Positions 10,047 to 39,578 of a stretch of DNA of 64,000 nt are shown piece by piece. The translations under genes were made by a program, and so were the position numbers. Below the pieces are notes generated by a model, which searched no databases, had not been told where the DNA came from, and saw only the letters and a list, made by a program, of their open reading frames with translations. This stretch comes from Ferrimonas lipolytica (GTDB lineage Bacteria; Pseudomonadota; Gammaproteobacteria; Enterobacterales; Shewanellaceae): assembly GCF_012295575.1 (NCBI RefSeq), contig NZ_CP051180.1, positions 2,666,001 to 2,730,000 of the forward strand. Reading direction: 5' to 3'. Position 1 is the first letter of the stretch. The number at the start of each line of letters is the position of its first letter.

Positions 10047-10421
10047 TTAACGGATCATGGCCGGGTACTCGAACTCATGGCAGTGGTTACAGTAAATCTC
10101 GGATTTCTGGTGCTCTGCGTGGCAATAACTGCAGGCAAGGTCCTGACCGTAGTGCAAAGAATCGTGCGGGTTTGGCTCGACGGTATGGTCGTGACTGTCA
10201 CGGGCGGTTGCTTCCGCCAAATCGGCCTTGGAGCCGTGACAGGCAATGCAGGCGTCTTCAGACGGCACATTAAAATCCTTCTGGCTGTCGTGGCAAATGG
10301 TGCAATCAACTTTACCGTTTTCGGACATAATCTCTTGGTGATGAGATTTAATTGGGTTGGCCACTACCACTGGGGTTGCGAACACAGTGATAAGTACCAG
10401 AGATACTAATGTCTTTTTCAT
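10047..10421 (-). CDS. Periplasmic tetraheme cytochrome c (flavocytochrome heme subunit)
   Basis: 124 aa with a Sec signal (residues 1-21, ending VVVAN). Four heme-attachment motifs are visible: CTICH, CIACH, CSYCH and CNHCH. Size, motif spacing and context match the N-terminal tetraheme domain of FccA-type fumarate reductases, here as a separate subunit. AAGGA lies seven bases before the ATG, and the gene starts 10 bp after the flavoprotein stop. Expected role: pass electrons from the quinol pool via CymA-like donors to the Tat-exported flavoprotein. Confidence 0.92.
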   Translation of the reverse strand: MKKTLVSLVLITVFATPVVVANPIKSHHQEIMSENGKVDCTICHDSQKDFNVPSEDACIACHGSKADLAEATARDSHDHTVEPNPHDSLHYGQDLACSYCHAEHQKSEIYCNHCHEFEYPAMIR

Positions 10422-10431
10422 GATGGAATCC

Positions 10432-11991
10432 TTAAGCCTGTTTCAGGGTGACAGAGTTCTTATTAGCAATATTTCGCGCAGCGTTGCGTCCCGTCACTAC
10501 TCCCTCTGCGATAGCGCACCCCCCCAAGCGGGAGGCTCCATGGATTCCACCAGTTGCCTCGCCAGCGGCGTATAGACCTTCAATGTGCTGATCGGTCAAC
10601 AATGCCAACACTTCACTCTTAGCATTAACCCGTACCCCCCCCATGCAATAATGCACTTTTGGCCACATGCGAACGGCGTACCAAGGACCGAGATTTAGTT
10701 CGATTGCAGAGGCTAGAGGACGGCCAAACTGTTCATCTTTGCCTTGACGAACGTACTTATTCCAGTCGGCAACCTGCTGTTTCAATGCTTCGGCTGGCAT
10801 ATCGTACAGGCTGGCCAAATCGTCTAGGTTTTCTGCTTTTTTAATTACGTCGTACTTGAGGCCCCACTCTAGGGTTTGGGCGCGGCTCGCTCCTTCGGCA
10901 TTGGTGAAACCGATGGGGTACACCGGCTGACCCTTTTCATCTCGGTTTTGCATAATCTTGGTAGCGCGCTCACGACGGTCTGCCAGCTCGTTGAAGTAAC
11001 GCTGGCCACTACGAGGATCAACCACTATGCCCTTGGGGAAGGTGCCGATGGTGTTGAACTGAGAAGCAGTACCGAAGCCTTTTTCATCTGGAGAGGTCCA
11101 GGGACCAAGCTGGATTTGATCCAGATGCACTGGGTTGGCTCCCAGTAGCATCATTTGTTTCAAAGCATCGGCGTTGGCACCTGGATGGTTGGTGGAGGTC
11201 AGCTCATCGGTCATCTTAGGCTGGTGGATTTGGCGGAAGGCGATGTCCTGACCGAAGCCGCCGGTGGCCATAATCACACCTTTGCGGGCACCGAAGCGTT
11301 TTGCTTCACCACTGCTGGGACGTTCATAACGGTGGTTCACCAAAGCGTTAAAACCAATCACACGACCAGAGTCGTCAGTAATGAAGCTTTCCAGCTTGGT
11401 TTGTTTTTTCATCTCAACCCCTTTGGCCTCAGCGGCTTTAATCAGAGGGCGAATGATTCCTGCGCCGGAGCTTTGCTTGGCTTGCAAAATCCGAGGAACG
11501 GAGTGACCACCAAAGTGCTGAACAAAAGGCTTCCATTCAACACCGAAACCTTCTAACCAGATGGCTGAGGAAGCTGTGTCCTGACAGACCAATTTCAGCA
11601 TTTCGACGTCGTTCATACCACGTCCAGACTCCAACATGTCCTGAACCATCAACTCAACGCTATCGCTGATGCCTTTTTCCTTCTGAGTTGCGGAACCAGC
11701 GATGGCCATAGCACCACCGTTTATAGTGGAGTTACCGCCAAATACCGGCATTTTGTCGACCACAAGGACGCTCTGCCCTTCTTCGGCAGCTTGGACTGCA
11801 GCGGACATTCCGGCAAATCCAGAGCCTACGACAATGACGTCGTAGACATGGTCGAAGGCTTGGTCCCCTTTGTTAGCACAAGGGGTTGCGAGCGTAGTTC
11901 CAGTTGCAGCAGTGGCACCCACTCCAGCGGCGAGAGTAATGCTCTTTTTTAGCATCGAACGACGAGCGTGGTTACATTCAGACTTGCTCAT
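10432..11991 (-). CDS. Tat-exported FAD reductase of the fumarate/urocanate reductase family
   Basis: 519 aa from the ATG at 11991 (AGGAGA ten bases upstream). A Tat signal is visible: HARRSMLKKS then a small-residue hydrophobic core to about residue 36. The FAD-binding strand is DVIVVGSGFAGMSAA, followed by GGNSTINGGAMAIAG; the C-terminal FAD contacts are in GLYAAGEATGG and SRLGGCAIAEG. It aligns with the flavin domain of FccA, and the catalytic arginine region is kept (NELADRRERAT). Where FccA has the substrate-binding AHPT, this protein has LGPWTSPDEKGFG, so the substrate is probably not fumarate; that change is reminiscent of urocanate-reductase-type enzymes. It has no heme or FMN-binding domain of its own. 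First gene of a sigma-54-controlled operon. Confidence 0.88.
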   Translation of the reverse strand: MSKSECNHARRSMLKKSITLAAGVGATAATGTTLATPCANKGDQAFDHVYDVIVVGSGFAGMSAAVQAAEEGQSVLVVDKMPVFGGNSTINGGAMAIAGSATQKEKGISDSVELMVQDMLESGRGMNDVEMLKLVCQDTASSAIWLEGFGVEWKPFVQHFGGHSVPRILQAKQSSGAGIIRPLIKAAEAKGVEMKKQTKLESFITDDSGRVIGFNALVNHRYERPSSGEAKRFGARKGVIMATGGFGQDIAFRQIHQPKMTDELTSTNHPGANADALKQMMLLGANPVHLDQIQLGPWTSPDEKGFGTASQFNTIGTFPKGIVVDPRSGQRYFNELADRRERATKIMQNRDEKGQPVYPIGFTNAEGASRAQTLEWGLKYDVIKKAENLDDLASLYDMPAEALKQQVADWNKYVRQGKDEQFGRPLASAIELNLGPWYAVRMWPKVHYCMGGVRVNAKSEVLALLTDQHIEGLYAAGEATGGIHGASRLGGCAIAEGVVTGRNAARNIANKNSVTLKQA

Positions 11992-12037
11992 TACAATGGT
12001 TCTCCTGATAGGCAAGTAAAACAATCAGAAGTAGAAG

Positions 12038-13093: not shown

Positions 13094-14041
13094 TTAACTA
13101 ATGTACATCTGTCCGGCGTATACCACGAAGTGGCGCAGGGCTAATACCCCTAAAATGGTGCAGCTTGATACGCCAATCAAAAAGGCTTTACTGTGACGCC
13201 AAGCTACCGGCGCTAAAGTACTGGCTAGTACCGGCACCGCAAGGCCCAAACCAACCACCCCAAACCAGAATACCTGTGCCCAAACACCGCTGCTGATGGC
13301 AGCCGTTGCCGCCTGTGCCGCTGGCCCAGAGAAGTTCAAACCAACAAACAGCAGCACCAAACAAAGCGCTTCATTAAAGGCCACTGGGTACTCAATGCGG
13401 TGTACCTGCTCAATGCAGTCTGAGTCAGATTTATTGAAAGCCAGCGTTGCCAGCAGAATATTACTGGCTGAACCCATAGATAGTGCTGACGCCAAGAACA
13501 ATGCAGGCAACACCGCTGTATTGAGGATCGGGTAGCTGATCATCGCCGACAATAGGAAGCCGGTGTAAATTGCCACGCCAATGGCTAACACAAACATCAG
13601 CTTTAATAGCGGTTGCTCTATCACCCTTAGTACGTTGATCAGGCCCGTAAGTGCCGGCACACGTTCAAGCAGAACTTGCTGAAACACCAGTGCAAAATAG
13701 ACAAACATCAACGGGATGTAGAGCAACAGTACCAATACCCCCCACGCCATCACTGAAGTTAGGTTGTAGTTAAGTAAAATAAGATAAAAATCAAAAGGTT
13801 TCGTTAGATCGAAAACCAATAATGCCATGCCAGCACAGATTGCCGCTGGGCCGATAATCGCCGACGCCTTAATTACCGGCAGGCCTTCAACCGGTAGGCC
13901 TCGACTGCGCTTATACCAGCGTAAGCCGATGGCCACCATTACTGAGCCAGCAGACAAACCAGCCATAAATAGATAGACCGCGATCATCCAGTTCCAAACA
14001 ACTGGATCATATTGTTCCATTGAGCCCCAGATATTGTTCAT
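13094..14041 (-). CDS. psrC: NrfD/PsrC-type membrane anchor of polysulfide/thiosulfate reductase
   Basis: 315-aa polytopic inner-membrane protein with eight or nine hydrophobic segments, starting MNNIWGSMEQYDPVVWNWMI, typical of the NrfD/PsrC family. It would bind menaquinol and pass electrons to the ferredoxin-like subunit encoded just upstream. The ATG overlaps the psrB stop by four bases (ATGA), indicating translational coupling. It is last in the phsA-psrB-psrC operon. Confidence 0.9.
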   Translation of the reverse strand: MNNIWGSMEQYDPVVWNWMIAVYLFMAGLSAGSVMVAIGLRWYKRSRGLPVEGLPVIKASAIIGPAAICAGMALLVFDLTKPFDFYLILLNYNLTSVMAWGVLVLLLYIPLMFVYFALVFQQVLLERVPALTGLINVLRVIEQPLLKLMFVLAIGVAIYTGFLLSAMISYPILNTAVLPALFLASALSMGSASNILLATLAFNKSDSDCIEQVHRIEYPVAFNEALCLVLLFVGLNFSGPAAQAATAAISSGVWAQVFWFGVVGLGLAVPVLASTLAPVAWRHSKAFLIGVSSCTILGVLALRHFVVYAGQMYIS

Positions 14042-14610
14042 TGGTTGATCCCTCCGCGTTTTCCTGGAATACGGTACACCCGTGGCTTGGTACCTAGGTG
14101 TGCTTTGTCTTGGAAGTGGATACGAGTATCAAGCAGCTGGGCGACATCACTACTTGGATCGTTAGCATCACCAAAGGTCAACGCATCGGTTGGGCATACA
14201 CTTACGCACGCCGGTTGTTTGCCTTCGGCCAAGCGACTGTGTTTACAGAAATCGCATTTATCAGGCACCCGAGTTTCTGGGTTGATAAAGCGTACCTTGT
14301 ACGGGCATGCCGCGATGCAGTATTGGCAGCCAACGCATTTGTCCTTGTTAATGCTGATAATGCCGTCATCGCCAACGTATGCGGCGCCGGTAGGACAGAC
14401 CTCAACACAAGGGGCATTCTCACACTGCTGGCACGATACTCGGTGGTACTTAAAGTGGAGATCTGGGTAGTGACCATGAGGGCCTTCAATCCGAACCTGA
14501 ATTCGAGTTACCGCATCAGGGGTGCTGTTCTCACTTCGGCAGGCGACATTACAGGCCTGACAACCGATGCACTTGTTCTCGTCGTGCACCATTACATAAC
14601 GTTTAGTCAT
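14038..14610 (-). CDS. psrB: Four-cluster ferredoxin-like subunit (PsrB/PhsB)
   Basis: 190 aa with four [4Fe-4S] cysteine groups: CIGCQACNVAC near the start, CQQCENAPCVEVCP, CVGCQYCIAACP, and CDFCKHSRLAEGKQPAC with a final CP. Standard layout for DMSO-reductase-family electron-transfer subunits linking the quinol-oxidising anchor to the molybdenum subunit. No signal peptide of its own; it would be co-exported with the Tat-bearing catalytic subunit. Starts 10 bp after the phsA stop. Confidence 0.95.
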   Translation of the reverse strand: MTKRYVMVHDENKCIGCQACNVACRSENSTPDAVTRIQVRIEGPHGHYPDLHFKYHRVSCQQCENAPCVEVCPTGAAYVGDDGIISINKDKCVGCQYCIAACPYKVRFINPETRVPDKCDFCKHSRLAEGKQPACVSVCPTDALTFGDANDPSSDVAQLLDTRIHFQDKAHLGTKPRVYRIPGKRGGINQ

Positions 14611-14620
14611 TGGTTACTCC

Positions 14621-16900
14621 TCAGGCCTTAGCCACGCTGACACCGGCGGTGTGTAGGCTCATGCCAGTTACCGGTGAGATAACGTGAGGCAGTAGGTTGC
14701 CGCAATGCACGCCACGACCGTATGCACGAGCCAGTTCTTTGTTCTTTGAGCCAAATCCCATGTAAGCAAACACGGTGTCTGGGCGGATGCCTGGCGTCAC
14801 CAGTGCAACCCCATGCTCTTCGCCAGTATCGTTGTAGAGGCGGATCTTATCGCCAGACTTAATGCCCATATGACCTGCGGTAATCGGGTTAATCCACACC
14901 GCGTTGTCGTTCATTAGGTTGGCTAAGTACGGCACATTGTGGGTTGCGCCATTGGTGTGAACGGCCACCTTACCTTGAATGAAAAACAGTTGATTCGGCT
15001 GCTTTAGCGTTACCTCGCGATAACGAATCACACCGCGTCCCGGCGCCATCGTTTCAATCTTGGTTGAACTAAGCTCTATCTTGCCGCTTGGGGTTTTAAA
15101 CTTAAGGGCGCTGGCGTAGCTGCCATCCTCATCCGCCACCCGAGCTTTGCTATGGGTCGCTTGGAACTTGGCTACGTAGCTTGGTTCGCGCAGCAACAGC
15201 GGCACGCCGTAGCTGATATAACCTTGCCGTTTAATCTCTTGCAGCAACTTAGCGTCTTTCTTGGTCTGTACCAGCTGCAGGCTTTCCATGGTTTCCCATG
15301 GGAAGAACTTGCCTAAGCCAAGCGCGTGGCCAATCTGCTGCCAGATCTGCCACGACGGGCGCGTATCACCGATGGTTTCAACCACCCGTTGACGCACGTA
15401 GTAGGCTGGCGATTTGCTGGATTTATCAAAGATCTCTTCGTCACGCTCGAGATAGGTTGATTCCGGCAGAATCACGTCGGCATAGGCGGCGCTTTCACTC
15501 ACGTATAGATCACAGCAAACGACAAACTCCATCTGCTTCATCGCTTCCACAACGCGGGCGCGATCGGTCATGGTTTGCATTGGATTGGAGCGGCTAATCA
15601 CCCAACCTTTTAGTTGATATGGTTTGCTCTCCAACGCTGCATCCAATATCGACTGATAGACTCCACCTTTTGACCAAGTCATAGCGAACTGCTGATCGAC
15701 TTGATCGATGCGTTTCGCGGTAATGGTTGGCATGCCGTCAACTCCAGGTTTACCTAAGGTTGGGGCGGCGTCATCACCGGCAAATTGATTGTAGGTTTTG
15801 GCTTTCTTTGCGAAGAACAGGCCACCTTTCCGTTCAAGGTTGCCAATCAATACATTGGCTGCATACAGCGCACGCCGAAGTTCAAACTCTTCTGGGGTAA
15901 AGGTGGTTCGGTGGCCGTAGTCCACCAGTGCATGGGGTGCTGCTGCCGCTAACTCGTGAGCAATACGGCGAATGTCAGCTGCAGGAACTTCACAGATCCG
16001 TTCGGCCCACTCTGGGGTGTACTGCTTAACTTCGTCGGCAAACTCATCAAAGCCAGCAACGTACTTCTCAACAAAATCATGGTCATATAAATTATCGTTA
16101 ATCAGCACATGGCACAGTGATAATGCCACCGCGATATCGGTTCCCGGCTTGATGGGATACCACTTGTCGGCCTTGTCAGCAACGATAGAGAAACGTGGCT
16201 CAAACACCACCAGTTTGGCTTTACCCTTGGTCTGCGCTTTCATCAAACCGCGGGTTTCCGACATGTTGATACCTTCGTACAGGTTATGACCAAAGTTAAT
16301 AATATACTTGGCCCCACCTAAATCACGCTTTACACCTCCGCCGTACATCGCCGATGCAGCGTATTTGTATGCTCCTGGGCAAGTACTTGCATGAGTAAAG
16401 GTATTTGGGCTACCAAACGCATGAGCAAGGTGGAATAGATACTTATGTTGGGAACCAGATTTAGATGAAAAGGCAACGCTTTCAGCGCCATACTTCTGCT
16501 TGATGCCATTCAATTTTTCGGCAATCAGTTGATAGGCTTCGTGCCATTCAATCTCTTGCCATTGGCCTTCACCACGCTCGCCAACCCGCTTAAGCGGCTT
16601 GACCAATCGTTGCGGATCATACAAAAGGCTGTGACCAGCACCGCCGCGAGCGCAGACGGCACCGCCAAATGATTTGGCAGCGGCATTACCAAGAATGGAA
16701 ACGTTTTTACCATTAATGACACGTGCCGAGATCGGGCAACGCGTTGAACACATCTCGCAGATACTGTTTACTTCGCTGCCAACCGGTTTAAGGCTTTGTT
16801 GTTCAAAGGCTGCAAGGGTTCCCGGTAGGGTTGCAACTAATGCACATCCAGCAGTACTGGCACCGGCTCCCTTGAGGAAGCTACGTCTATCCAGTTTCAT
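14621..16900 (-). CDS. phsA: Thiosulfate/polysulfide reductase molybdopterin subunit
   Basis: 759 aa from the ATG at 16900 (GGGAGA upstream). A textbook Tat signal DRRSFLKGAG precedes a [4Fe-4S] motif (Cys48, 51, 55, 83) and the molybdopterin domains. The Mo ligand is predicted as Cys174 in HASTCPGAYKY, the arrangement of PhsA/PsrA. At about 760 aa it is the size of PhsA/PsrA and much smaller than tetrathionate reductase TtrA (over 1,000 aa). Context (psrBC downstream, ThsSR-like sensor genes upstream) supports thiosulfate respiration. Whether polysulfide or thiosulfate is the preferred substrate cannot be read from sequence. Confidence 0.9.
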   Translation of the reverse strand: MKLDRRSFLKGAGASTAGCALVATLPGTLAAFEQQSLKPVGSEVNSICEMCSTRCPISARVINGKNVSILGNAAAKSFGGAVCARGGAGHSLLYDPQRLVKPLKRVGERGEGQWQEIEWHEAYQLIAEKLNGIKQKYGAESVAFSSKSGSQHKYLFHLAHAFGSPNTFTHASTCPGAYKYAASAMYGGGVKRDLGGAKYIINFGHNLYEGINMSETRGLMKAQTKGKAKLVVFEPRFSIVADKADKWYPIKPGTDIAVALSLCHVLINDNLYDHDFVEKYVAGFDEFADEVKQYTPEWAERICEVPAADIRRIAHELAAAAPHALVDYGHRTTFTPEEFELRRALYAANVLIGNLERKGGLFFAKKAKTYNQFAGDDAAPTLGKPGVDGMPTITAKRIDQVDQQFAMTWSKGGVYQSILDAALESKPYQLKGWVISRSNPMQTMTDRARVVEAMKQMEFVVCCDLYVSESAAYADVILPESTYLERDEEIFDKSSKSPAYYVRQRVVETIGDTRPSWQIWQQIGHALGLGKFFPWETMESLQLVQTKKDAKLLQEIKRQGYISYGVPLLLREPSYVAKFQATHSKARVADEDGSYASALKFKTPSGKIELSSTKIETMAPGRGVIRYREVTLKQPNQLFFIQGKVAVHTNGATHNVPYLANLMNDNAVWINPITAGHMGIKSGDKIRLYNDTGEEHGVALVTPGIRPDTVFAYMGFGSKNKELARAYGRGVHCGNLLPHVISPVTGMSLHTAGVSVAKA

Positions 16901-16980
16901 CTTAATCTCCCAAGCCGGCCACGCCAGCGTGATTTTCATTGTCGAGATTAAGTGTCTAAAACTAACCGGTGGTTAACTAT

Positions 16981-17360: not shown

Positions 17361-19151
17361 TTATTGTGCTGACACTGCTGCTCGGAGCAAGGTAATGGCG
17401 ACCTCACAACCACGATGCGATTCCACCGTATCGTCGTCAAGATTAACTACAGTAAACGTACCTTGCTGTTGGGAAATCAGCTCACGGCAGATAGCTAAAC
17501 CAAGTCCGAGTCCATCCTCTTTGGTGGTGATGAACGAATCCATCATTTTGTCAGGGTCATCGCTAAAGCCTGGCCCGGTATCGGCAATAGTGATCCGAAG
17601 TTGCGACTCTTCAAAATGTTGAACTATGGTGATGGTGCCTTGCGCGTCGGGCCGCATCGCATCTACAGCATTTTTTAGCACGTTAACCAGCACCTGTTGC
17701 ATCGCAACCTTATCGGCCATAACAAAAAAGGGTTCGCCGATATAACGTTGCTCAATCTCGATCTGGTTACGCTGAAACTCCACCTCAAGTAACGCTAAAC
17801 TGTCCTCGAGTACGGTTAGCATATTGGTACGTTCTATCACCGTTTTATGGCGCTTTAATAACCCCCGAATTCGGTTAACAACGGCGCTCGCTCGTTGCGT
17901 TTGCGTGGCTATTTTGTCTAACAGATCAAGCTGCTGTGGATCCGGATTATCAACCAGCTGTAATCGGATCTGACCACCCTCGCAATAATTGCTGATTGCC
18001 GCTAACGGCTGGTTCAGCTCATGTGCAAGGCCAGAGCCAATCTCACCCAATACCGCAGTGCTATGCAGTTTTTCTAGTTGTATGGTTTGTTGTTGTAGTT
18101 GGCGTTCGCTGTTGATCAACTCTTCGCTTTGACGCCGTACCTTATATTCGATCCAAAAGTGATACAGGGTGGCAATCAACCACAGCAGCAACGCCCCAAT
18201 AGCCCAATGCTGATTTTCATCTAACCAACGCATTAACGACGACGGCGCAGAGGTTTGCCGATGCTCAAATTCCAAGTCAGAAAAGAGCTTAATAACCGCC
18301 AATTGGCTGATAGGCGACGTCCAGCCAGCATTCCCAGAGCTGATGGAAACCGGGTCGTCTGGGGTTAATGCCAGCAATGCCTGAGTAAGTTGCTCACGAA
18401 TAGGGGTAGCGACACTATCTATCGCTGCAAACGACCAATTAGGGTAAAGCTCTGTGCTGGTTTGGCAGTCGTACCCCGGCGGCTGACTGCGGTTAATAAC
18501 GCGATAGTCATCCAGCCGCACCTTACCGGCAGCAACCATATCTTCAAGAGTGCAAAAGGCTGTAATGGCAGCGTCTGCTGTGCCATCGCGAACATTGTAG
18601 ATAAGTGGGTCAAGAGGGAAACCAAGGAAGCGGACGTTATCAAAGAACTTTTGCGGTTCCTCAATACCTCGTTGTTTAATCAACCCAAGCGCGGCTTGAT
18701 AGCCTCCAAGCGCATGAAAGCCGCTGGCAACCACCGACTTACCTTGCAGATCATACAAGGTGCGGTAAGGGCTGTCGGCTCGAACCAAGATAGCGGCACC
18801 AATGGCATTAGTCGTATGGTTATGGCGCTGTGACCGCATAGTCGCTAACCACGACAACGGGAAACGCTTAGATAGGTACAGGTATTGCCCCGGATTGGTA
18901 ATAATAAAGCTGATTTGATCATTCGCAAGGGCGTGTTGCAGCTCATCAAAAGTCCCTGATTGGATCTCAAAATGAACCCCTTCAACCCGTTCAGATAGGT
19001 GCTCCATTAATGGTTGCCAACGTTGGTTAACATACTGATGTCCCCAGTTTGCTAATACCCCAACACGCAACAGTTGGCTTGGTTCAGCCTGTACCGTATT
19101 AACCCAGCTTAACCATAACCAAAGTAACGCCAATATCGCTCGTTTACCCAC
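17361..19151 (-). CDS. thsS: ThsS/TtrS-like sensor histidine kinase with periplasmic binding domain
   Basis: 596 aa: signal sequence (1-22), a PhnD-type periplasmic binding domain (about 25-300; SGTFDELQHALANDQI, ITNPGQYLYLSKRFPL), one membrane segment (about 314-332), a dimerisation helix with phospho-acceptor His377 in LAHELNQPLAAI, and an ATPase domain (NVLKNAVDAM, DTGPGF, GLGLGLAI). This is the layout of the thiosulfate sensor ThsS and tetrathionate sensor TtrS. Because the neighbour is phsA, not ttrA, thiosulfate sensing is more likely, matching the ThsSR-phs linkage known from Shewanella. Divergent from thsR. Confidence 0.8.
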   Translation of the reverse strand: MGKRAILALLWLWLSWVNTVQAEPSQLLRVGVLANWGHQYVNQRWQPLMEHLSERVEGVHFEIQSGTFDELQHALANDQISFIITNPGQYLYLSKRFPLSWLATMRSQRHNHTTNAIGAAILVRADSPYRTLYDLQGKSVVASGFHALGGYQAALGLIKQRGIEEPQKFFDNVRFLGFPLDPLIYNVRDGTADAAITAFCTLEDMVAAGKVRLDDYRVINRSQPPGYDCQTSTELYPNWSFAAIDSVATPIREQLTQALLALTPDDPVSISSGNAGWTSPISQLAVIKLFSDLEFEHRQTSAPSSLMRWLDENQHWAIGALLLWLIATLYHFWIEYKVRRQSEELINSERQLQQQTIQLEKLHSTAVLGEIGSGLAHELNQPLAAISNYCEGGQIRLQLVDNPDPQQLDLLDKIATQTQRASAVVNRIRGLLKRHKTVIERTNMLTVLEDSLALLEVEFQRNQIEIEQRYIGEPFFVMADKVAMQQVLVNVLKNAVDAMRPDAQGTITIVQHFEESQLRITIADTGPGFSDDPDKMMDSFITTKEDGLGLGLAICRELISQQQGTFTVVNLDDDTVESHRGCEVAITLLRAAVSAQ

Positions 19152-19904: not shown

Positions 19905-20516
19905 ACGCAAGCACAACAGCGATTAAGCCTTAACCCTCTATTTACTCGGTGTCCTTACCATTGCAACTGTTGCTGGTTTAACTGAATGTGAGTAACTCAG
20001 ACTAACAGGGGCGGCATTGCCCAGCTGGGTATAATGTCATCGTCACTGCTGTGGCTCGAATTAGCTTGTCATAGCCTAAAAGTGTTTACCTTTTCCCTGA
20101 GCGGATTACCGATATGGTAGTCTCATTCGGCATCATCATTAACTCTTATCTCGCCGCGATAAATTAACTTATGTGGAACGCCACTGCAGCTCAAAAATCA
20201 TTATCTAACGTTATCAAAATTATAATTACGACCCAGCAATCATTTATTTTCAAAGATTAATTTTATAAACCAGCGCACCTACTCAAAATAAACCAAACTA
20301 AAATCGAAAAACTTTCACTTTAACTTCATTTAAGCTTAGCTGGATGTACTTTCTTAGCATTAAATTAGACCTATTCCACACCCTAGCCAATGCTGTGACC
20401 ATGGGTTTAAAAAGGACCACCCTTGTCATGCGCGCAAACCAGCCTTGCGGCAGTTGCATTGATGCCCTTCAGACGGAGTGATGAAATAACTGCGACTTCA
20501 AAAAAGAGAAAGTTCA
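19905..20516. other. Gap upstream of the cytochrome c3/OYE pair
   Basis: 612 bp with no supportable protein gene. It becomes very A+T-rich from about 20160 to 20360. A 17-codon frame (20428-20481) with AAGGA before it and a CGSC motif is too short to judge. Promoter and regulatory sites for the cytochrome/OYE operon must lie here, but I see no unambiguous one. Confidence 0.5.
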
Positions 20517-20927
20517 ATGAAACTTAAATTAATTATCGCCTCGATAATGGTGACGACGTTATCGGTGCCAGCCTTAGCCGACCCATATGATCGTCAATAC
20601 CCGAAGATTATTATGTCAATGCATCAAACCGACAAAGCCGTCGACTTTGATCATCAAGCTCACCTTAATGTCGACTGTAGCCAATGCCATCATCCGCAAA
20701 TAAATGAGGTCGAAAGTTTTACCCCATATAAATGTTCCAGCTGTCACTCAACTAAGGGTGAAGATAAAGCTAAATCAAACGCTTATTTCAAGATCATTCA
20801 CAGTAAAAAAGCCAAAGATAATGATCCGGCCCAGCGTTGTTTAGCCTGCCACCAGCAAGAACAACAACAGCGTGATGATAATGAAGTAAGTCTAACCAAC
20901 TGCACGAACAGCAGCTGCCACAAGTAA
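20517..20927 (+). CDS. Small periplasmic cytochrome c3-like tetraheme protein
   Basis: 136 aa with a Sec signal (1-21, ending ALA). Heme sites: CSQCHH, CSSCH, CLACH and CTNSSCH. The last is C-x4-CH, a spacing known from class III cytochromes c3. The upstream FDHQAHLNVDC segment supplies distal histidines, also cytochrome c3-like. The following flavoprotein gene starts 20 bp later with its own ribosome-binding site, so the two are very probably co-transcribed and functional partners: the cytochrome would deliver electrons to the exported flavoprotein. Confidence 0.9.
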   Translation: MKLKLIIASIMVTTLSVPALADPYDRQYPKIIMSMHQTDKAVDFDHQAHLNVDCSQCHHPQINEVESFTPYKCSSCHSTKGEDKAKSNAYFKIIHSKKAKDNDPAQRCLACHQQEQQQRDDNEVSLTNCTNSSCHK

Positions 20928-20947
20928 TACTTAATTCAGAGGTAATG

Positions 20948-22174
20948 ATGAGTATCGATCGCCGCACAATGATGAAAATTATGGGCTTGGCAGCAACTAC
21001 GCCAAGTGCAGTATCCTTTAATGCAGCAGCGTCTTCTGACTCTGGGCGCAAGCTGTTTGAACCAGTAAAGATTGGCAGCCTTGAGTTAAAGAACCGGATT
21101 ATCCGTTCTGCACAATCACAGTACCGCGCCACCGCTGATGGTAACCCAACCGAAGACCTTAAACGCGTTCACCGTGAATTAGCTGAGGGTGGGGTTGGCC
21201 TGATCATCACCGGTCTCACTTACATCCTAAAGGAGGACCAATATGGTCATACTGGTACCGGCCTGTATGACGATAGCCAAATTGAGATGTACCGAGAGCT
21301 GGTGAAAAACACCCATGATCACGGCAGCAAAATCGCAGTTCAGCTAGCGATGGTGGGCCCGCAAAGTGACTACCGTACCGATCACCGGAGCGTCTACGGT
21401 GTATCCGAGGTACCGCACCCGATCTACGGTACCGTAGCCAACAAAGTGATGACCAAACAGGACATCCAATACGCTATCGAGTCCTTTGCCGCTGCTGCGG
21501 TTCGCGCGCAAAAAGCCAACTTTGACGGTATCGAACTGCACTTTGCCCACAACTATCTGGTCAGCCAATTCCTATTCCCTTACTACAACACCCGTACCGA
21601 TGAATATGGCGGCCCTATCGAGAATCGCGCTCGGTTTGGCTTTGAGATCATCGAAGCCGTCCGCAAAGCTGTGGGACCAGAGTTCCCTATCTTGGCCAAA
21701 GTACACGGTCGTGATTACCTTGGCAGTCTCGCCGGCGGCAATACTAAAGAGGAAAACCTCTACTTTATTAAGGGCCTGAAAGAGCGGGGTATTACCGCTG
21801 TCGACATCAGTGGCGGCAATAAAGTGATGGGAATGGGCGAGTTCCACCCAGACATTCAGGACGAACAGGATCAGTCCTACTTTGCTAAAGACGCCAAATA
21901 CATCAGTGACAACCTCGACTTGCCATTGATTGTTACCGGCGGTAACCGCACCCCTAAGCTGCTGGAACAGCAATTAGCCGAGATTGATCAGCTGCAAGCC
22001 TTTGGTTTTGGCCGTACCTTACTGTCCGAACCTGATCTGGCCAACAAGTGGGCTAAGGATCCAACCCAGCGACCGCGCTGCTTAGCCTGCAACTGGTGTA
22101 TCGCTAATTACGGCAAGCAAAAGTCTCAGTGCGTGCTCAATGCTTCCCGCGCTTATGTGCCAGGAAAAGCATAG
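20948..22174 (+). CDS. Tat-exported old-yellow-enzyme-family flavoprotein with iron-sulfur motif
   Basis: 408 aa (ATG at 20948 favoured over 20945 by spacing to AGAGG). The N terminus IDRRTMMKIMG plus an Ala-rich segment is a Tat-type signal. Residues from about 35 form an OYE TIM barrel: LKNRIIRSA, QLAMVGPQSDYR, GIELHFAHNYLVSQFL, DEYGGPIENRARF, KVHGRDY and GFGRTLLSEPDLANKW are the FMN and active-site segments. After the barrel comes CLACNWCIANYGKQKSQC, spaced like the [4Fe-4S] motif of 2,4-dienoyl-CoA reductase and trimethylamine dehydrogenase, but the protein ends there with no FAD/NADPH domain. Partnered with the cytochrome c3 gene upstream, it is probably a respiratory ene-reductase fed by periplasmic electrons. 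Substrate unknown. Confidence 0.85.
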   Translation: MSIDRRTMMKIMGLAATTPSAVSFNAAASSDSGRKLFEPVKIGSLELKNRIIRSAQSQYRATADGNPTEDLKRVHRELAEGGVGLIITGLTYILKEDQYGHTGTGLYDDSQIEMYRELVKNTHDHGSKIAVQLAMVGPQSDYRTDHRSVYGVSEVPHPIYGTVANKVMTKQDIQYAIESFAAAAVRAQKANFDGIELHFAHNYLVSQFLFPYYNTRTDEYGGPIENRARFGFEIIEAVRKAVGPEFPILAKVHGRDYLGSLAGGNTKEENLYFIKGLKERGITAVDISGGNKVMGMGEFHPDIQDEQDQSYFAKDAKYISDNLDLPLIVTGGNRTPKLLEQQLAEIDQLQAFGFGRTLLSEPDLANKWAKDPTQRPRCLACNWCIANYGKQKSQCVLNASRAYVPGKA

Positions 22175-22285
22175 CTGCGCCCGTTTTGAAGCGAAACGGC
22201 TAACCACCAGACATGCAGAGCTCTATAATGGATAGGGTACAAGGCTCCACATCAACTTAGGTTACTTCTTCTAACCTTCCGCAAC

Positions 22286-22318
22286 ACGGCAGGCCACATC
22301 AGCCTGACCTGCCGTTTG
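22286..22318 (+). terminator. Terminator after the OYE gene
   Basis: Hairpin ACGGCAGG/CCTGCCGT followed by TTTGATTT, 23 bp before the LysR start codon. It uncouples the OYE operon from the LysR gene or attenuates read-through. Confidence 0.75.
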
Positions 22319-22340
22319 ATTTCACTCAGAAGGTAACGAG

Positions 22341-23240
22341 TTGAAAGACAACATTACGCTCGATGAACTAAAAACTCTGATCCACTTACATGAGTCGGGC
22401 TCTATCAGCAAGGCCTCCGAATCCATTGGTGTTATGCCCTCGACCATCAGTCGCAGCCTGTCGCGCCTGGAAGAGAAGCTCAATGCGTCATTACTGGTCA
22501 GAACATCAAGGCGGATTGAGTTTACTGCCGAAGGGTGCAAGCTACTCACGCACGCCAAAACTATCGTCGCTTCAGTTAACAATATCGAAACGGAGTTTAA
22601 TACCGAGTCCTCAGATCCAATTGGCACTCTGCGTATCAATGGCGCTTCACCGGTACTTATCCATCTGATCAGCCCCATTTTGAAGTTGTACCAACAACGC
22701 TACCCAGAGGTGCGGATTGAACTCTACAACAACGAAGAGATCGTCGACCTAATTGAGCATAGGGCAGACATTGCGATTCGAGTCGGCCCAGTCACCGCTC
22801 CAACTTTTACGGTAGAACGCCTCGGTACCAGCCGGCGACGGATCCTAGCTAGTCCCGCCTACCTGCAAAGCAACGGCTTCCCGCAATCTACGGAGCAGTT
22901 GAGTCAACACACACTAATCGGGCTGGAGGGGCCGCCAGCACTAAATACTTGGCCACTCAGAGCAGCGAACGGCAAGCTAGTTAAAATCGAACCGAAGATC
23001 ACCGCTTCCAGCGGTGAAGTGTTGCGTCAATTGACGCTCTCCGGCACCGGTATCGCCTGCCTGAGCGATTTTATCAGTAAGTCAGATCGCGGCAGCGGCA
23101 AGCTGGTGGAACTGTTTAGCCAACAACTTGAGCTCGACCAAAGAGAGATCACTGCAGTGTATTACCAAGGCAAGAATGTACCTGCAAAGATCACCACGTT
23201 TATTGAGTTTCTAAAAAACGAACTGCCCAAACAGCTGTAA
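22341..23240 (+). CDS. LysR-family regulator next to the OYE pair
   Basis: 299 aa, starting at TTG (AGAAGGT seven bases upstream). N-terminal winged HTH: LDELKTLIHLHESGSISKASES and PSTISRSLSRLEEKLNASLLVRTSRR, then the effector-binding domain with ASPAYL and GIACLSDF segments characteristic of the LysR subgroup that often controls oxidoreductase genes. It lies 166 bp after the OYE gene on the same strand, with a terminator between. It probably regulates the cytochrome/OYE operon (inference). Confidence 0.88.
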   Translation: MKDNITLDELKTLIHLHESGSISKASESIGVMPSTISRSLSRLEEKLNASLLVRTSRRIEFTAEGCKLLTHAKTIVASVNNIETEFNTESSDPIGTLRINGASPVLIHLISPILKLYQQRYPEVRIELYNNEEIVDLIEHRADIAIRVGPVTAPTFTVERLGTSRRRILASPAYLQSNGFPQSTEQLSQHTLIGLEGPPALNTWPLRAANGKLVKIEPKITASSGEVLRQLTLSGTGIACLSDFISKSDRGSGKLVELFSQQLELDQREITAVYYQGKNVPAKITTFIEFLKNELPKQL

Positions 23241-34874: not shown

Positions 34875-35765
34875 CTATTTAGCTAACTCAATGCCACAGT
34901 GTTCAATAAAGCGTTGCGCTAGCGGAGTAAGCCGTTCCGATTTATAGATGAGGTAAATTGAGCGCTTTTCAGAGCCTGCTCCCGGAGCGATAACTTCACG
35001 AAGATCACCACGTTCCAGCTCAGCATCAACCGCCAGTAACGGCAGTACGCTCAAACCAAGACCAGTTCCTACTGCACGCTTTATGGCGCCCATGGTGTTC
35101 ATCACCATCTCGTCCTGTACGGTCACGCCCAACTCTTTTAACAGATGCAGTGCTTCAATACGACTGGCGGCTTCCTCTTCATCCAGAACCCAAGTTGCCG
35201 CAGAGAGATCTTCAATCGAAGCGGTACGCTTAGCTAACTTATGCTCTGGGCTAGCGACCACGCAGAGGCGATCGCTCAGCCACGGTTGTGACTCAATGCC
35301 AATAGAAGTTGGCCGCGCACTGATGAAGGCGAGATCTAACTCATTATCTACTACCATCTGTTCAATCGTACTGGAAGTACCGATCTTAAGACGAGTGTTG
35401 ATTGCCGGATTATAACGTTTGAAATAGGGAAGCTGCTTGGAGATAACATAGTTGCCGCAGGTCTTATTGGCGCCAATATTTAAGGTACCACCCTCGCCTG
35501 TTGCTTGGTCCTGGAAGCGCTGTTTAAGCTCTGAAACCTGCCCTAAAATTGTGTTGGCGTAGGTTAATGCAACCTGCCCAGACTCATTCAACACTACTCC
35601 GGAGGCACTACGTACAAATAACTTGGCCTCTAATGAGGACTCAAGCTCCTTTAAGCTCATGCTTACCGCAGGCACGGACTGATGTAAATGTTTCGCTGCT
35701 TTCGAGATCTGTCCATGCTCACAAATCGCTTTTAGCACCGCTAACTGTTTTAGGGTAATTCGCAT
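34875..35765 (-). CDS. LysR-family regulator (CysB-like)
   Basis: 296 aa: HTH (LKQLAVLKAICEHGQISKAAKH, SVPAVSMSLKELESSLEAKLFVR) and an effector domain (GGTLNIGANKTCGNYV, ELDLAFISARP, GLGLSVLPLLAVD). GGAG lies six bases before the ATG. It ends 17 bp from the convergent transporter and is followed upstream by fccA on the same strand beyond repeat copy F. It may control the transporter or fccA (inference). Confidence 0.9.
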   Translation of the reverse strand: MRITLKQLAVLKAICEHGQISKAAKHLHQSVPAVSMSLKELESSLEAKLFVRSASGVVLNESGQVALTYANTILGQVSELKQRFQDQATGEGGTLNIGANKTCGNYVISKQLPYFKRYNPAINTRLKIGTSSTIEQMVVDNELDLAFISARPTSIGIESQPWLSDRLCVVASPEHKLAKRTASIEDLSAATWVLDEEEAASRIEALHLLKELGVTVQDEMVMNTMGAIKRAVGTGLGLSVLPLLAVDAELERGDLREVIAPGAGSEKRSIYLIYKSERLTPLAQRFIEHCGIELAK

Positions 35766-36139: not shown

Positions 36140-37930
36140 TTATTTTTTCTCTTTAGCGAACTTAGCTGCGTTCTCACCAGCGATGCGGCCGAATACCACA
36201 GTATCAGCGATAGCGTTGCCGCCCAGACGGTTGTAACCGTGAACACCACCAGTTACTTCACCGGCTGCGTACAGGCCATCCATCTTCCAGCTTTGCAGGT
36301 TCAATACGTTGGCATCAGTATCTACTGCTACGCCGCCCATTACGTGGTGGATACCAGGCTGAACTCGTACCGCGTAGTATGGCGGTTTGCTCAGGTTAAG
36401 AGGCATGTCTTCACGACCGAAGGCATCATCTTTGCCATTAGCTTGGTACTGGTTGTAGTCAGTGGCAGTTTTAACAAGGTCTTTCATGCCGGTGATTTCG
36501 GCCAGACCTTTGATGGTATCGGACTTGCTCAGCATGCCCAGGTGGTCGTAACCACGTACCATTTTCTTCTTCTCAACCAACTGCTCGTCGAATACCAACC
36601 AAGCCCATTGAGCTTCAGTTTTCAAAATTGCATCGGAAGCACGGTCGCGAGTAGTTAACTCGTTAATGAAGCGCTGACCGTCGGTGTTCACCATGATGGC
36701 ACCAACACCACGAACGGTTTCAGAAACCAAGATACGGCTATCTTTACCAATGGTAGGGTGTGCTTGTACCCAATCGATGTCGGTCATGGACGCGCCAATC
36801 TCTTTCGCTAGGGTGATACCATCGCCCGTCGCAGTAACGTTGTTAGAGCTTGTCATGTCAGCAAAGGTTGGACGATAGTAAGCAATCATCTCTTTGTTCA
36901 TGCCGTAACCACCGGTAGCCAAAACGACAGAGTCAGCGGCGATCATGTTGTAACCACTGTGACGGCCGTGAACGACTACGCCTGCAATAGACTTGTCATC
37001 ATTCAGCACAATCTTCTCAACCCGAGAGTTTACGCGAACTGGAATGTCACGCTGTTCAGCAGCTTTACGCAGCGTATCGATGATGTGTGGACCAACAGAG
37101 TGGCCGCCCGAAGGACGGTGGGTACGCTCTACCCGAGCACCACCAGAACGCTTTAAGTCATCCATGTTAGCGCCGAGATCTTCCAGCCACTTGACTGCGT
37201 CGGCAGAACGTTCAGACAGGATCTGCACCAGCTTAGGATCGTTCTGGTAGCGACCGCCTTTCATGGCGTCTTCTGCGTACCATTCAACAGAGTCTTCGAT
37301 ACCTTTGGCTTTCTGCTGTGGTGTACCAACGGCGTTGATACCGCCAGCAGCCAACATCGAGTTACCACCGGTGTATTCGTTCTTTTCGAACAACACAACG
37401 TTGGCGCCAGCTTCTTTAGCGGAGATGGCAGCATTAAAACCAGCAGAACCACCACCAACAACGATTACGTCCACAGTTTCAACTGGGCCTTTATCGATAG
37501 CTTTTTGAATCTTTTTCTGGTTCCAATCACCGTTCCATGCTTTCTTCTCTTTGCTGTCAGCAAACGGCATTTCCATGTCATCGAAAGAGTGACAACGGTT
37601 ACAAGTCAGCTCTGGCTTAGAGTGGCCAACGTGACAAGAAGTACAGTTGATTTCACCCAGGTGAGAAGTGTGTGGGTCGAACTCCAACTCATCGTTGGCT
37701 AGCTCTTGGTAACTGCCATGACAATCTTGACACTGAGCGTTCTCATGGGTCTGACTATCAGTCAGGTTAGCCTTGATATCCTTGATTTTTTCACCAACGT
37801 GACAGGAATCACAGCCACCCATTTCAGCATGGAATTTTGCCAGTGCTTGACCAGATTCTGCTTGTACTGGAGCCGTTAGGGACAGGCCTAATACTACCGC
37901 TGCAGAAAGCGTTGCTAATTTCAGTTTCAT
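36140..37930 (-). CDS. fccA: Flavocytochrome c3 fumarate reductase
   Basis: 596 aa from the ATG at 37930 (AAGGTGAG upstream). Sec signal (1-24, ending VQA), then a tetraheme domain with CDSCH, CQDCH, CTSCH and CNRCH, then the FAD domain: DVIVVGGGSAGFNAA, GGNSMLAAGGINAVG, AHPTIGKDSR (substrate-binding His), LTTRDRASDA (catalytic Arg), HHVMGGV, GYNRLGGNAIADTV. All fumarate-reductase active-site residues known from Shewanella FccA appear present. It is a soluble periplasmic reductase that also acts as an electron shuttle. A porin gene diverges from it. Confidence 0.96.
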   Translation of the reverse strand: MKLKLATLSAAVVLGLSLTAPVQAESGQALAKFHAEMGGCDSCHVGEKIKDIKANLTDSQTHENAQCQDCHGSYQELANDELEFDPHTSHLGEINCTSCHVGHSKPELTCNRCHSFDDMEMPFADSKEKKAWNGDWNQKKIQKAIDKGPVETVDVIVVGGGSAGFNAAISAKEAGANVVLFEKNEYTGGNSMLAAGGINAVGTPQQKAKGIEDSVEWYAEDAMKGGRYQNDPKLVQILSERSADAVKWLEDLGANMDDLKRSGGARVERTHRPSGGHSVGPHIIDTLRKAAEQRDIPVRVNSRVEKIVLNDDKSIAGVVVHGRHSGYNMIAADSVVLATGGYGMNKEMIAYYRPTFADMTSSNNVTATGDGITLAKEIGASMTDIDWVQAHPTIGKDSRILVSETVRGVGAIMVNTDGQRFINELTTRDRASDAILKTEAQWAWLVFDEQLVEKKKMVRGYDHLGMLSKSDTIKGLAEITGMKDLVKTATDYNQYQANGKDDAFGREDMPLNLSKPPYYAVRVQPGIHHVMGGVAVDTDANVLNLQSWKMDGLYAAGEVTGGVHGYNRLGGNAIADTVVFGRIAGENAAKFAKEKK

Positions 37931-38161
37931 CATCTCACCTTGGAGTATTTTCATTTTCTGACTACCACTTTAGCAGTAGATGGAGAATATACAATTTGAT
38001 CCGCGTCATATTAAAAATAGGGAGCAACATCAACATTCTTAAACCCCATTAAATGTTTCTTAACTACGTAAAGACGCAAAAAAGGAATCTCGAAAAATTA
38101 TCACCTTAGCTCTCTAAGTTTATGAGGTTTATTGTGGTTACTTTATTACAATCAAACCAAA

Positions 38162-38285: not shown

Positions 38286-39578
38286 ATGATGATGTTAAAT
38301 AGCACTTTTAAGCTGTCTCCGATATTGCTGGCTGTTGCAGCTCAATTGGCAATGTCCGCTAATGCCACTGCGATTGAGGGCATAACCGCGGCCGATAAGC
38401 TTGCTCTAAAATCTCGCACGGTTTACTTCGATCGAGACTATGAAAAGCGTAGCTCGAACGACAGTACCTTGGCTCAGGGCCTCGAACTAAATTACCAATC
38501 TGGTGAAATTTCTGACTTTTTCACCGTTGGTGCTTCCTTCTATGGCGTGGCCAACATCAAGTCTAGCGGCAGCGCTGGTGGTAACATTCTTCCTAGTGGC
38601 AGTCACGCTGGCGATGTTCGTGGTGGCTTTGGTAAAGTTGGTCAAGCCTACATTGGTTTGTCCCTAGTTGAAGACAGCAACATCACTTTGGGCTACCAAA
38701 AAACCAAAACCATGTTATTGGCAAGCTCTGGCAGCCGTGCTATTCCCAGCACTTTCCGCGGCATAACCGGCAATTATCAGTGGCAGTCATTTAAGGTTTA
38801 CGGTTATGTATTTGATGAATGGAGTCGCCGTGGTGATGACGAATGGGAATCATTCGAAACGGTTAATGGTGATGACATTGATTATGTCTGGGGATTTGGA
38901 ACTACCTTTAAACAAGGTAAATGGCAAGCCGATGCTGAATATTTAAACTCCGACAATTATTTAGCTAAATACGGCATTCGCGGGAGTTATTCGGACAAGT
39001 TAGCAGGCGGTAAAATAAAGTTATCCGCAGGTATCTTTTTCTCTGAAGATGATGGCAGTGCATTTAAAGCGGGAAGTGATAAAAACCTAGATAATATAGA
39101 CAGTAATGATGGTCAGGTTTACTACCTTGATGCCAACTGGAATTATCAAATGTTAACTTTTGGTGTTGCTTTTGCCCAAGTTGACGAAATTTGGATTGAA
39201 GACAATTTCGCTGGCGATCATGGTACTAACCCACTGCCAACCCGTGCCCCAATCGGCCCAGATTTAACCAATGCCGAAGAAACCATTTGGCAAGGCCGTG
39301 TTGGTTTTGACTTCGCTGGGATTGTCGATGGCCTAACCATCAATATGACCTACACCGAAGGTAAAGACGCAGAGAATGCCAAGTTAGGCGCCGCCGGTGG
39401 CACTGCTGATGAAGACTACTGGGCCATCGATACTCGCTATAACGTTGCGGCAGTGAAGGGCTTAAAGCTACGTTGGTTATACGCCGACTACAACTCTGAC
39501 GAGACTGGCTCTGTTGGTGGCGTTAAAGACGACGAGAAAGACCACCGCGTATACGTTGACTACAGCTACAAGTTTTAA
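38286..39578 (+). CDS. OprD-family-like outer-membrane porin
   Basis: 430 aa with a signal peptide (about 1-28, ending ANA). Mature N terminus IEGITAADKLALKSRTVYFDRDYE, long amphipathic strands, large extracellular loops rich in Asp/Gly/Ser, and terminal Phe in RVYVDYSYKF. The FDRDYEKRSSNDSTLAQGLEL start resembles OprD-type specific channels for small carboxylates and amino acids. Three consecutive ATG codons make the exact start uncertain. Divergent from fccA, so substrate (fumarate or other acid) entry for periplasmic reduction is plausible (inference). Confidence 0.85.
   Translation: MMMLNSTFKLSPILLAVAAQLAMSANATAIEGITAADKLALKSRTVYFDRDYEKRSSNDSTLAQGLELNYQSGEISDFFTVGASFYGVANIKSSGSAGGNILPSGSHAGDVRGGFGKVGQAYIGLSLVEDSNITLGYQKTKTMLLASSGSRAIPSTFRGITGNYQWQSFKVYGYVFDEWSRRGDDEWESFETVNGDDIDYVWGFGTTFKQGKWQADAEYLNSDNYLAKYGIRGSYSDKLAGGKIKLSAGIFFSEDDGSAFKAGSDKNLDNIDSNDGQVYYLDANWNYQMLTFGVAFAQVDEIWIEDNFAGDHGTNPLPTRAPIGPDLTNAEETIWQGRVGFDFAGIVDGLTINMTYTEGKDAENAKLGAAGGTADEDYWAIDTRYNVAAVKGLKLRWLYADYNSDETGSVGGVKDDEKDHRVYVDYSYKF

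Follow-up and report, generated by a model that had tools for sequence, protein, structure and literature searches.

A Tat-type old yellow enzyme encoded with a cytochrome c3 in Ferrimonas lipolytica: a candidate periplasmic reductase

A cytochrome c3 and an old yellow enzyme (OYE) with a Tat-type signal are encoded side by side in Ferrimonas lipolytica. They probably form a two-component, quinol-fed periplasmic reductase built on the OYE fold, in which electrons would pass from the c3 through a [4Fe-4S] cluster to FMN and then to an organic acceptor. A wider reading is possible and falls just short of probable: the OYE fold may have been recruited for anaerobic respiration, independently of the flavocytochromes c, and serve as its terminal reductase in the periplasm, with the c3 and the [4Fe-4S] cluster replacing NADPH. 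The pair lies in a stretch of 64,000 nucleotides (contig NZ_CP051180.1, positions 2,666,001 to 2,730,000), which is called the window below. An initial annotation had pointed out the exported OYE and its c3 neighbour. That observation was confirmed and its interpretation is partly supported; the export of the OYE and its partnership with the c3 are well supported by sequence comparison.

Gene pair and encoded proteins

The two genes and the associated features are as follows (window positions).

20434..20461, + strand: 28-bp element conserved upstream of c3; probable operator for the LysR of the cluster
20517..20927, + strand: cytochrome c3 gene, class III tetraheme, N-terminus Sec-like; its product is predicted to supply the OYE with electrons
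20945..22174, + strand: OYE gene, Tat-type flavoprotein of the old-yellow-enzyme fold, 409 aa
20945..21046, + strand: OYE signal region of the twin-arginine type, with RR at residues 6-7
21539..21556, + strand: H199-x2-H202-x-Y204, ene-reductase active-site pattern
22079..22132, + strand: C379-x2-C382-x2-C385-x10-C396, predicted [4Fe-4S] ligands
22175..22340, + strand: 166-bp gap between OYE and LysR, where a predicted porin gene sits in relatives
22341..23240, + strand: LysR-family regulator gene (PF03466/PF00126)

Both reading frames and their motifs were recovered as first described. The c3 gene does lie directly upstream of the OYE gene; the gap, given initially as twenty bases, measures 17 bp. 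That description did not cover the LysR gene, the 28-bp element, the predicted porin of related clusters, or the gloA- and nemA-like neighbours.

The cytochrome has 136 aa and matches PF02085 (Pfam) at 1.2e-16, its 61.3 bits lying above the cut-off of 22.9. Its best relatives of solved structure are cytochromes c3. The N-terminus appears Sec-like, as judged by eye, in line with the Sec signal assigned at first. Three CxxCH motifs and one CX4CH motif were identified by eye. These heme motifs are invariant in 6/6 aligned sequences, together with His 46, 49, 59, and 95, which c3 structure alignments suggest to be the distal ligands. Four bis-His hemes are expected, since the distal histidines of solved c3 proteins have their counterparts at these positions. 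The PF02085 match and four heme sites with candidate distal His place the protein among the class III cytochromes c3.

The OYE matches PF00724 over residues 36-371 (4.2e-65; 220.7 bits against a cut-off of 27). Residues 33-409 were modelled from 15 sequences with a pLDDT of 82.5 and a pTM of 0.88; an earlier model from 7 sequences was poorer (pLDDT 64.4). Eight of 11 viral OYE loci were used to deepen the structural alignment. Comparison of the model with the Geobacillus kaustophilus OYE (3gr7) gave TM-scores of 0.80/0.89, and the last 85 residues had no match among solved structures. H199, H202, and Y204 align with the H-x2-H-x-Y of 3gr7 and are invariant in 7/7 orthologues; their catalytic roles are presumed from other OYE enzymes. 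The PF00724 barrel, the fold match, and the H/H-Y ene-reductase residues assign the protein to the old yellow enzyme family.

The N-terminus of the OYE carries DRRTMMKIMG, in which R6, R7, T8, K11, M13, and G14 are invariant in the 7/7 aligned orthologues. The best 12-residue mean of its hydrophobic stretch is 1.2-1.7 (Kyte-Doolittle), a range covered by that of eight Tat flavoproteins from the same genome (1.1-2.3). Hydrophobicity alone does not discriminate, because two FadH proteins without RR reach 1.2-1.4. The case for export is carried by the conserved RR motif. Neither the other OYEs examined in this genome (L002-L005) nor the sister proteins examined have such an N-terminal extension. 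Having both an RR motif and a hydrophobic stretch, the OYE is a predicted Tat substrate, and the Tat-type signal of the initial annotation holds up: the motif is kept in all seven orthologues and missing from the cytoplasmic relatives examined.

The C-x2-C-x2-C-x10-C motif was also found as reported, at Cys 379, 382, 385, and 396, and is invariant in 7/7 aligned orthologues. A likeness to dienoyl-CoA reductase had been proposed for these cysteines. All four align with those of the FadH homologues L002 and L004 (for L004 again by profile), the OYE being one residue shorter in two of the spacings. L004 itself matches the 2,4-dienoyl-CoA reductase 1ps9 at 1.8e-282. The aligned FadH cysteines presumably bind [4Fe-4S]. 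In the OYE model, the cysteine loop (residues 381-392) has a pLDDT below 50, too low to show the geometry of the predicted cluster. The OYE scores far below the cut-offs of the Fe-S OYE family models, a group covering FadH, BaiCD, mycofactocin OYE, and bilirubin reductase (204.4 bits vs 793 for TIGR03997; 201.4 vs 825 for BaiCD), and its matches to the long Fe-S models end at model position 344-367 of 641-645. The N-domain model of bilirubin reductase was matched end to end, at 172.5 bits against a cut-off of 425.

Distribution and phylogeny

Close OYE orthologues (E<1e-200; 75-79% identity to the window protein) were found in 7 of 152 family genomes, own genome included. A search with the c3 alone (E 1e-10) in the same 152 genomes returned these 7 and no others. 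The c3 gene lies directly upstream of the OYE gene in all 7 genomes holding a close orthologue of either. This adjacency, like the invariance of R6, R7, K11, the four cysteines, H199, H202, and Y204 in the OYE, exceeds what chance would give. The six other clusters are L036, L037, L038, L039/L109, L107, and L108. Two of them are further Ferrimonas loci, L036 in Ferrimonas futtsuensis and L039 in F. sediminum; L038 belongs to Shewanella atlantica. Divergence in the c3 exceeds that in the OYE (47-49% identity to the window c3 in relatives), yet the linkage is kept. Lack of the pair in every related genome had been named at the outset as grounds for rejecting the proposal; the two genes are adjacent in six other genomes, and their shared distribution suggests that the cytochrome is the dedicated partner of the OYE, as had been proposed.

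Outside the family, only the orthologues already counted and a signal-less sister family were retrieved from the order (394 genomes, E 1e-65), the class (369 genomes, 1e-70), and the phylum (398 genomes, 1e-70). The distribution of the pair is narrow in the samples and at the thresholds used. OYE matches occurred in 179 plasmid records, all below 60% identity. Neither a Tat motif nor a multiheme neighbour was seen at the 11 OYE loci on viral contigs.

A tree of 59 proteins was reconstructed, leaving out L050 and L064, which have no 300-aa frame across the match. All seven Tat-type OYEs group in a single clade (100/100); because its stem is long, we do not rely on its position within the sister family. 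The window OYE groups with the Shewanella copies and not with the other Ferrimonas copies, with support of only 94/86.

At E 1e-60 or better, OYE matches were found in 31 of the 152 family genomes; apart from the close orthologues, these matches belong to the sister family (38-41% identity). Signal-less short OYEs of this kind are widespread in Shewanella-family genomes and in other genomes of the order. The sister proteins at L013-L035 and L040-L065 share 38-42% identity with the window OYE and are about 370 aa long. They resemble it in having a cysteine cluster and no FAD domain, and differ in the missing Tat motif, in the last cysteine spacing, and in having no c3 neighbour where examined. 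Their spacing is C-x2-C-x2-C-x6-C at the order and family loci examined. RR within the first 40 residues was found in 0/25 usable order-locus frames (L040-L065; L050 was unusable, and the frame start is missing at L064). One family sister, at L014, has RR near its start without a hydrophobic stretch. No multiheme neighbour was present at the 10 of 23 family sister loci (L013-L035) examined, and a nearby diheme frame, not a c3, was seen at 2 of the 25 order loci (L062, L063). The window OYE does end at residue 409 without a FAD/NADPH domain, as first stated, but this is not a special trait. Since the short cytoplasmic sisters lack the domain too, its absence alone is no proof of a cytochrome partner.

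Other flavoprotein-cytochrome systems in the genome

The F. lipolytica genome has 27 matches to PF00890, of which 13 are strong (L072-L084). Two are fused flavocytochromes (L075, L076). Eight form split pairs (L077-L084), in which an RR-motif FAD_binding_2 flavoprotein stands beside a small multiheme cytochrome, in all eight cases of PF14537. Neither PF00890 nor PF14537 is among the Pfam matches of the c3-OYE pair, which does not qualify as a flavocytochrome c. The pair follows the same plan as the split pairs but differs in both flavin fold and cytochrome family, which suggests that it was assembled independently and did not arise by a domain swap. These eight pairs of the same layout in the same genome are in keeping with the initial proposal that a second fold performs the function of flavocytochromes c.

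One of the split pairs lies in the window itself (10047-12024, - strand) and consists of a Tat FAD_binding_2 flavoprotein and a PF14537 tetraheme cytochrome. Nearby, as judged by eye, are what looks like a molybdoenzyme operon of three genes (13094-16939) and a gene for a sensor kinase (17361-19151). The window also holds a fused flavocytochrome c (36140-37954, - strand), whose neighbours, by eye, are a LysR-like gene (34875-35765, - strand) on one side and a gene for an exported 430-aa protein (38286-39578, + strand) on the other.

Proposed electron-transfer route

We infer a route that starts at the quinol pool. A quinol dehydrogenase of the CymA kind (NapC/NirT type) would reduce the tetraheme c3. 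The genome has three strong NapC/NirT-type matches, two of which do not sit in any obvious nap operon (by eye). The c3 would hand electrons singly to the predicted [4Fe-4S] cluster, which lies close to the C-terminal end of the exported OYE and would in turn reduce FMN. The FMN would then give hydride to an organic acceptor with an activated C=C, nitro, or quinone-like group. This acceptor might be held by His199 and His202, with Tyr204 as the probable proton donor. Enoates, among them cinnamate and bile-acid intermediates, are known substrates of Fe-S OYEs and so are our first guess for the substrate here. For the relatives, uptake of the acceptor is predicted to occur through the porin encoded alongside the pair. 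Control of the operon is predicted to lie with the LysR regulator, acting at the 28-bp upstream element.

Neighbouring genes, regulation, and alternative functions

A predicted porin gene and then a LysR-type gene follow the OYE gene in 6/6 other genomes. The LysR of the window is 53-59% identical to those of the four clusters compared (L036-L039); LysR was scored by Pfam in these four clusters, and all four were confirmed. The predicted outer-membrane proteins of the relatives have 365-391 aa. The porin label is weak: one of four copies matches Porin_4, below the cut-off, and the assignment was otherwise made by eye from a signal and a barrel-like C-terminus. No porin gene is present in the 166 bp between OYE and LysR in the window cluster. 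One relative of the porin, 46-50% identical, was found elsewhere in the genome, with a gene for tandem NemA-type OYE domains some 1.1 kb away. This tandem gene (L099:9192-11417, - strand; G000:C1 3964191-3966416) encodes 741 aa with two NF007899 stretches. The Shewanella ifc layout consists of porin, flavocytochrome, and LysR; no paper on this layout was found among the literature searched.

A 28-bp element is common to the seven clusters and lies 55-96 bp ahead of the c3 gene. Because the pattern was derived from the seven upstream regions themselves, its presence in 7/7 is by construction; its single perfect match in the 4.1-Mb genome is not. With up to 3 mismatches, nine genome matches were found vs two for a reversed-pattern control, the eight imperfect ones carrying 2-3 mismatches. 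The element is probably the binding site of the LysR protein. No consistent site for CRP, FNR, ArcA, Fur, or NarP emerged from pattern searches across the seven upstream regions; a CRP-like site equalled by none of 200 shuffles was seen in the L108 region only. The promoter and terminator scan stayed near the shuffle means (3 vs 4.4 and 5 vs 3.9).

These surroundings bear on a second reading, which we consider rather unlikely. The same proteins and electron route might serve periplasmic detoxification, removing quinones, enones, and nitro compounds without supporting growth. A divergent gloA-like gene lies near the cluster in 5/6 relatives and a nemA-like OYE gene in 4/6, and such neighbours suggest electrophile handling. 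The L037 copies were scored: its GloA is above the TIGR00068 cut-off, and its nemA-like OYE reaches 372.4 bits vs a NemA cut-off of 403; the other gloA- and nemA-like calls were made by eye. Detoxification is also consistent with the location of the sole relative of the missing porin close to a NemA-type gene, and with the lack of a consistent anaerobic-regulator site among the upstream regions searched. However, a dedicated porin would import the compound rather than exclude it, and the layout matches that of the FAD_binding_2 pairs of the genome. By eye, neither gloA nor nemA was seen beside the window cluster or the F. futtsuensis locus.

Electron flow in the opposite direction is improbable. 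The OYE would then be a periplasmic dehydrogenase that oxidises its substrate, with the c3 carrying the electrons off. The C-x2-C-x2-C spacing also occurs in histamine dehydrogenase (6de6, by alignment), and trimethylamine dehydrogenase (TMADH) and histamine dehydrogenase (HADH) are known to send cluster electrons to an outside partner. Against this direction, H199 and H202 form the ene-reductase pair, whereas TMADH has Tyr at the first position. The potentials of c3 cytochromes are usually low and better suited to donating electrons. A cytoplasmic or NAD(P)H-dependent OYE with a functionally unrelated c3 neighbour is very improbable: classical OYEs do take NADPH at FMN without an extra domain, and short signal-less OYEs with a cysteine cluster and no FAD domain exist, but the Tat motif is kept in 7/7 orthologues and the pair is inherited together with a cytochrome whose c-type hemes are attached in the periplasm.

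Comparison with known systems

Several known enzyme families share parts of the predicted quinol-fed OYE reductase. FadH, BaiCD, and bilirubin reductase have the OYE barrel, with four cysteines that align in the case of FadH. They are intracellular, and the long forms have a FAD/NADPH domain; the protein described here has a Tat motif and lacks that domain. Trimethylamine and histamine dehydrogenases also combine an OYE barrel, C-x2-C-x2-C...C cysteines, and an external electron partner, but are oxidative, carry extra domains, and have another active-site pair. The YqjM/Thermus-type OYEs are among the closest solved folds and have the same H-x2-H-x-Y pattern; they are cytoplasmic, NAD(P)H-dependent, and free of Fe-S clusters.

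A like layout is found in the methacrylate system of Geobacter sulfurreducens AM-1 and in other split reductases of the flavocytochrome-c type. As described in PMC4427408, the methacrylate system is an operon of a Tat flavoprotein (Mrd) and a Sec multiheme cytochrome (Mcc), the same combination as in the c3-OYE pair. Mrd differs in being a FAD protein related to the flavocytochromes c, whereas the present pair has an OYE barrel, a predicted Fe-S cluster, and a class III c3.

An exported OYE with a c3 partner is possibly an unrecognised route by which organic molecules are used in place of oxygen. If so, a second protein fold would perform the job of flavocytochrome c, and the range of respiratory organic acceptors would widen to OYE substrates (enoates, enones, nitro, and quinone-like compounds). 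For biocatalysis, it would offer an ene-reductase that draws its electrons from quinol or an electrode, not from NADPH. The proposal makes a clear testable prediction for marine Shewanella and Ferrimonas.

No paper on a periplasmic or cytochrome-linked OYE was found among the matches listed, in a search whose coverage mostly excludes the subscription literature. The terms "old yellow" and "OYE" do not occur in the accessible portion of PMC10979944. In the portion of PMC2824531 available, OYEs were judged unlikely to contribute much to RDX metabolism. A table there gives an S. sediminis OYE (YP_001474442) and a cytochrome c3 (YP_001474443) under neighbouring accessions, without linking them. 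These two proteins may represent the S. sediminis copy of the c3-OYE pair.
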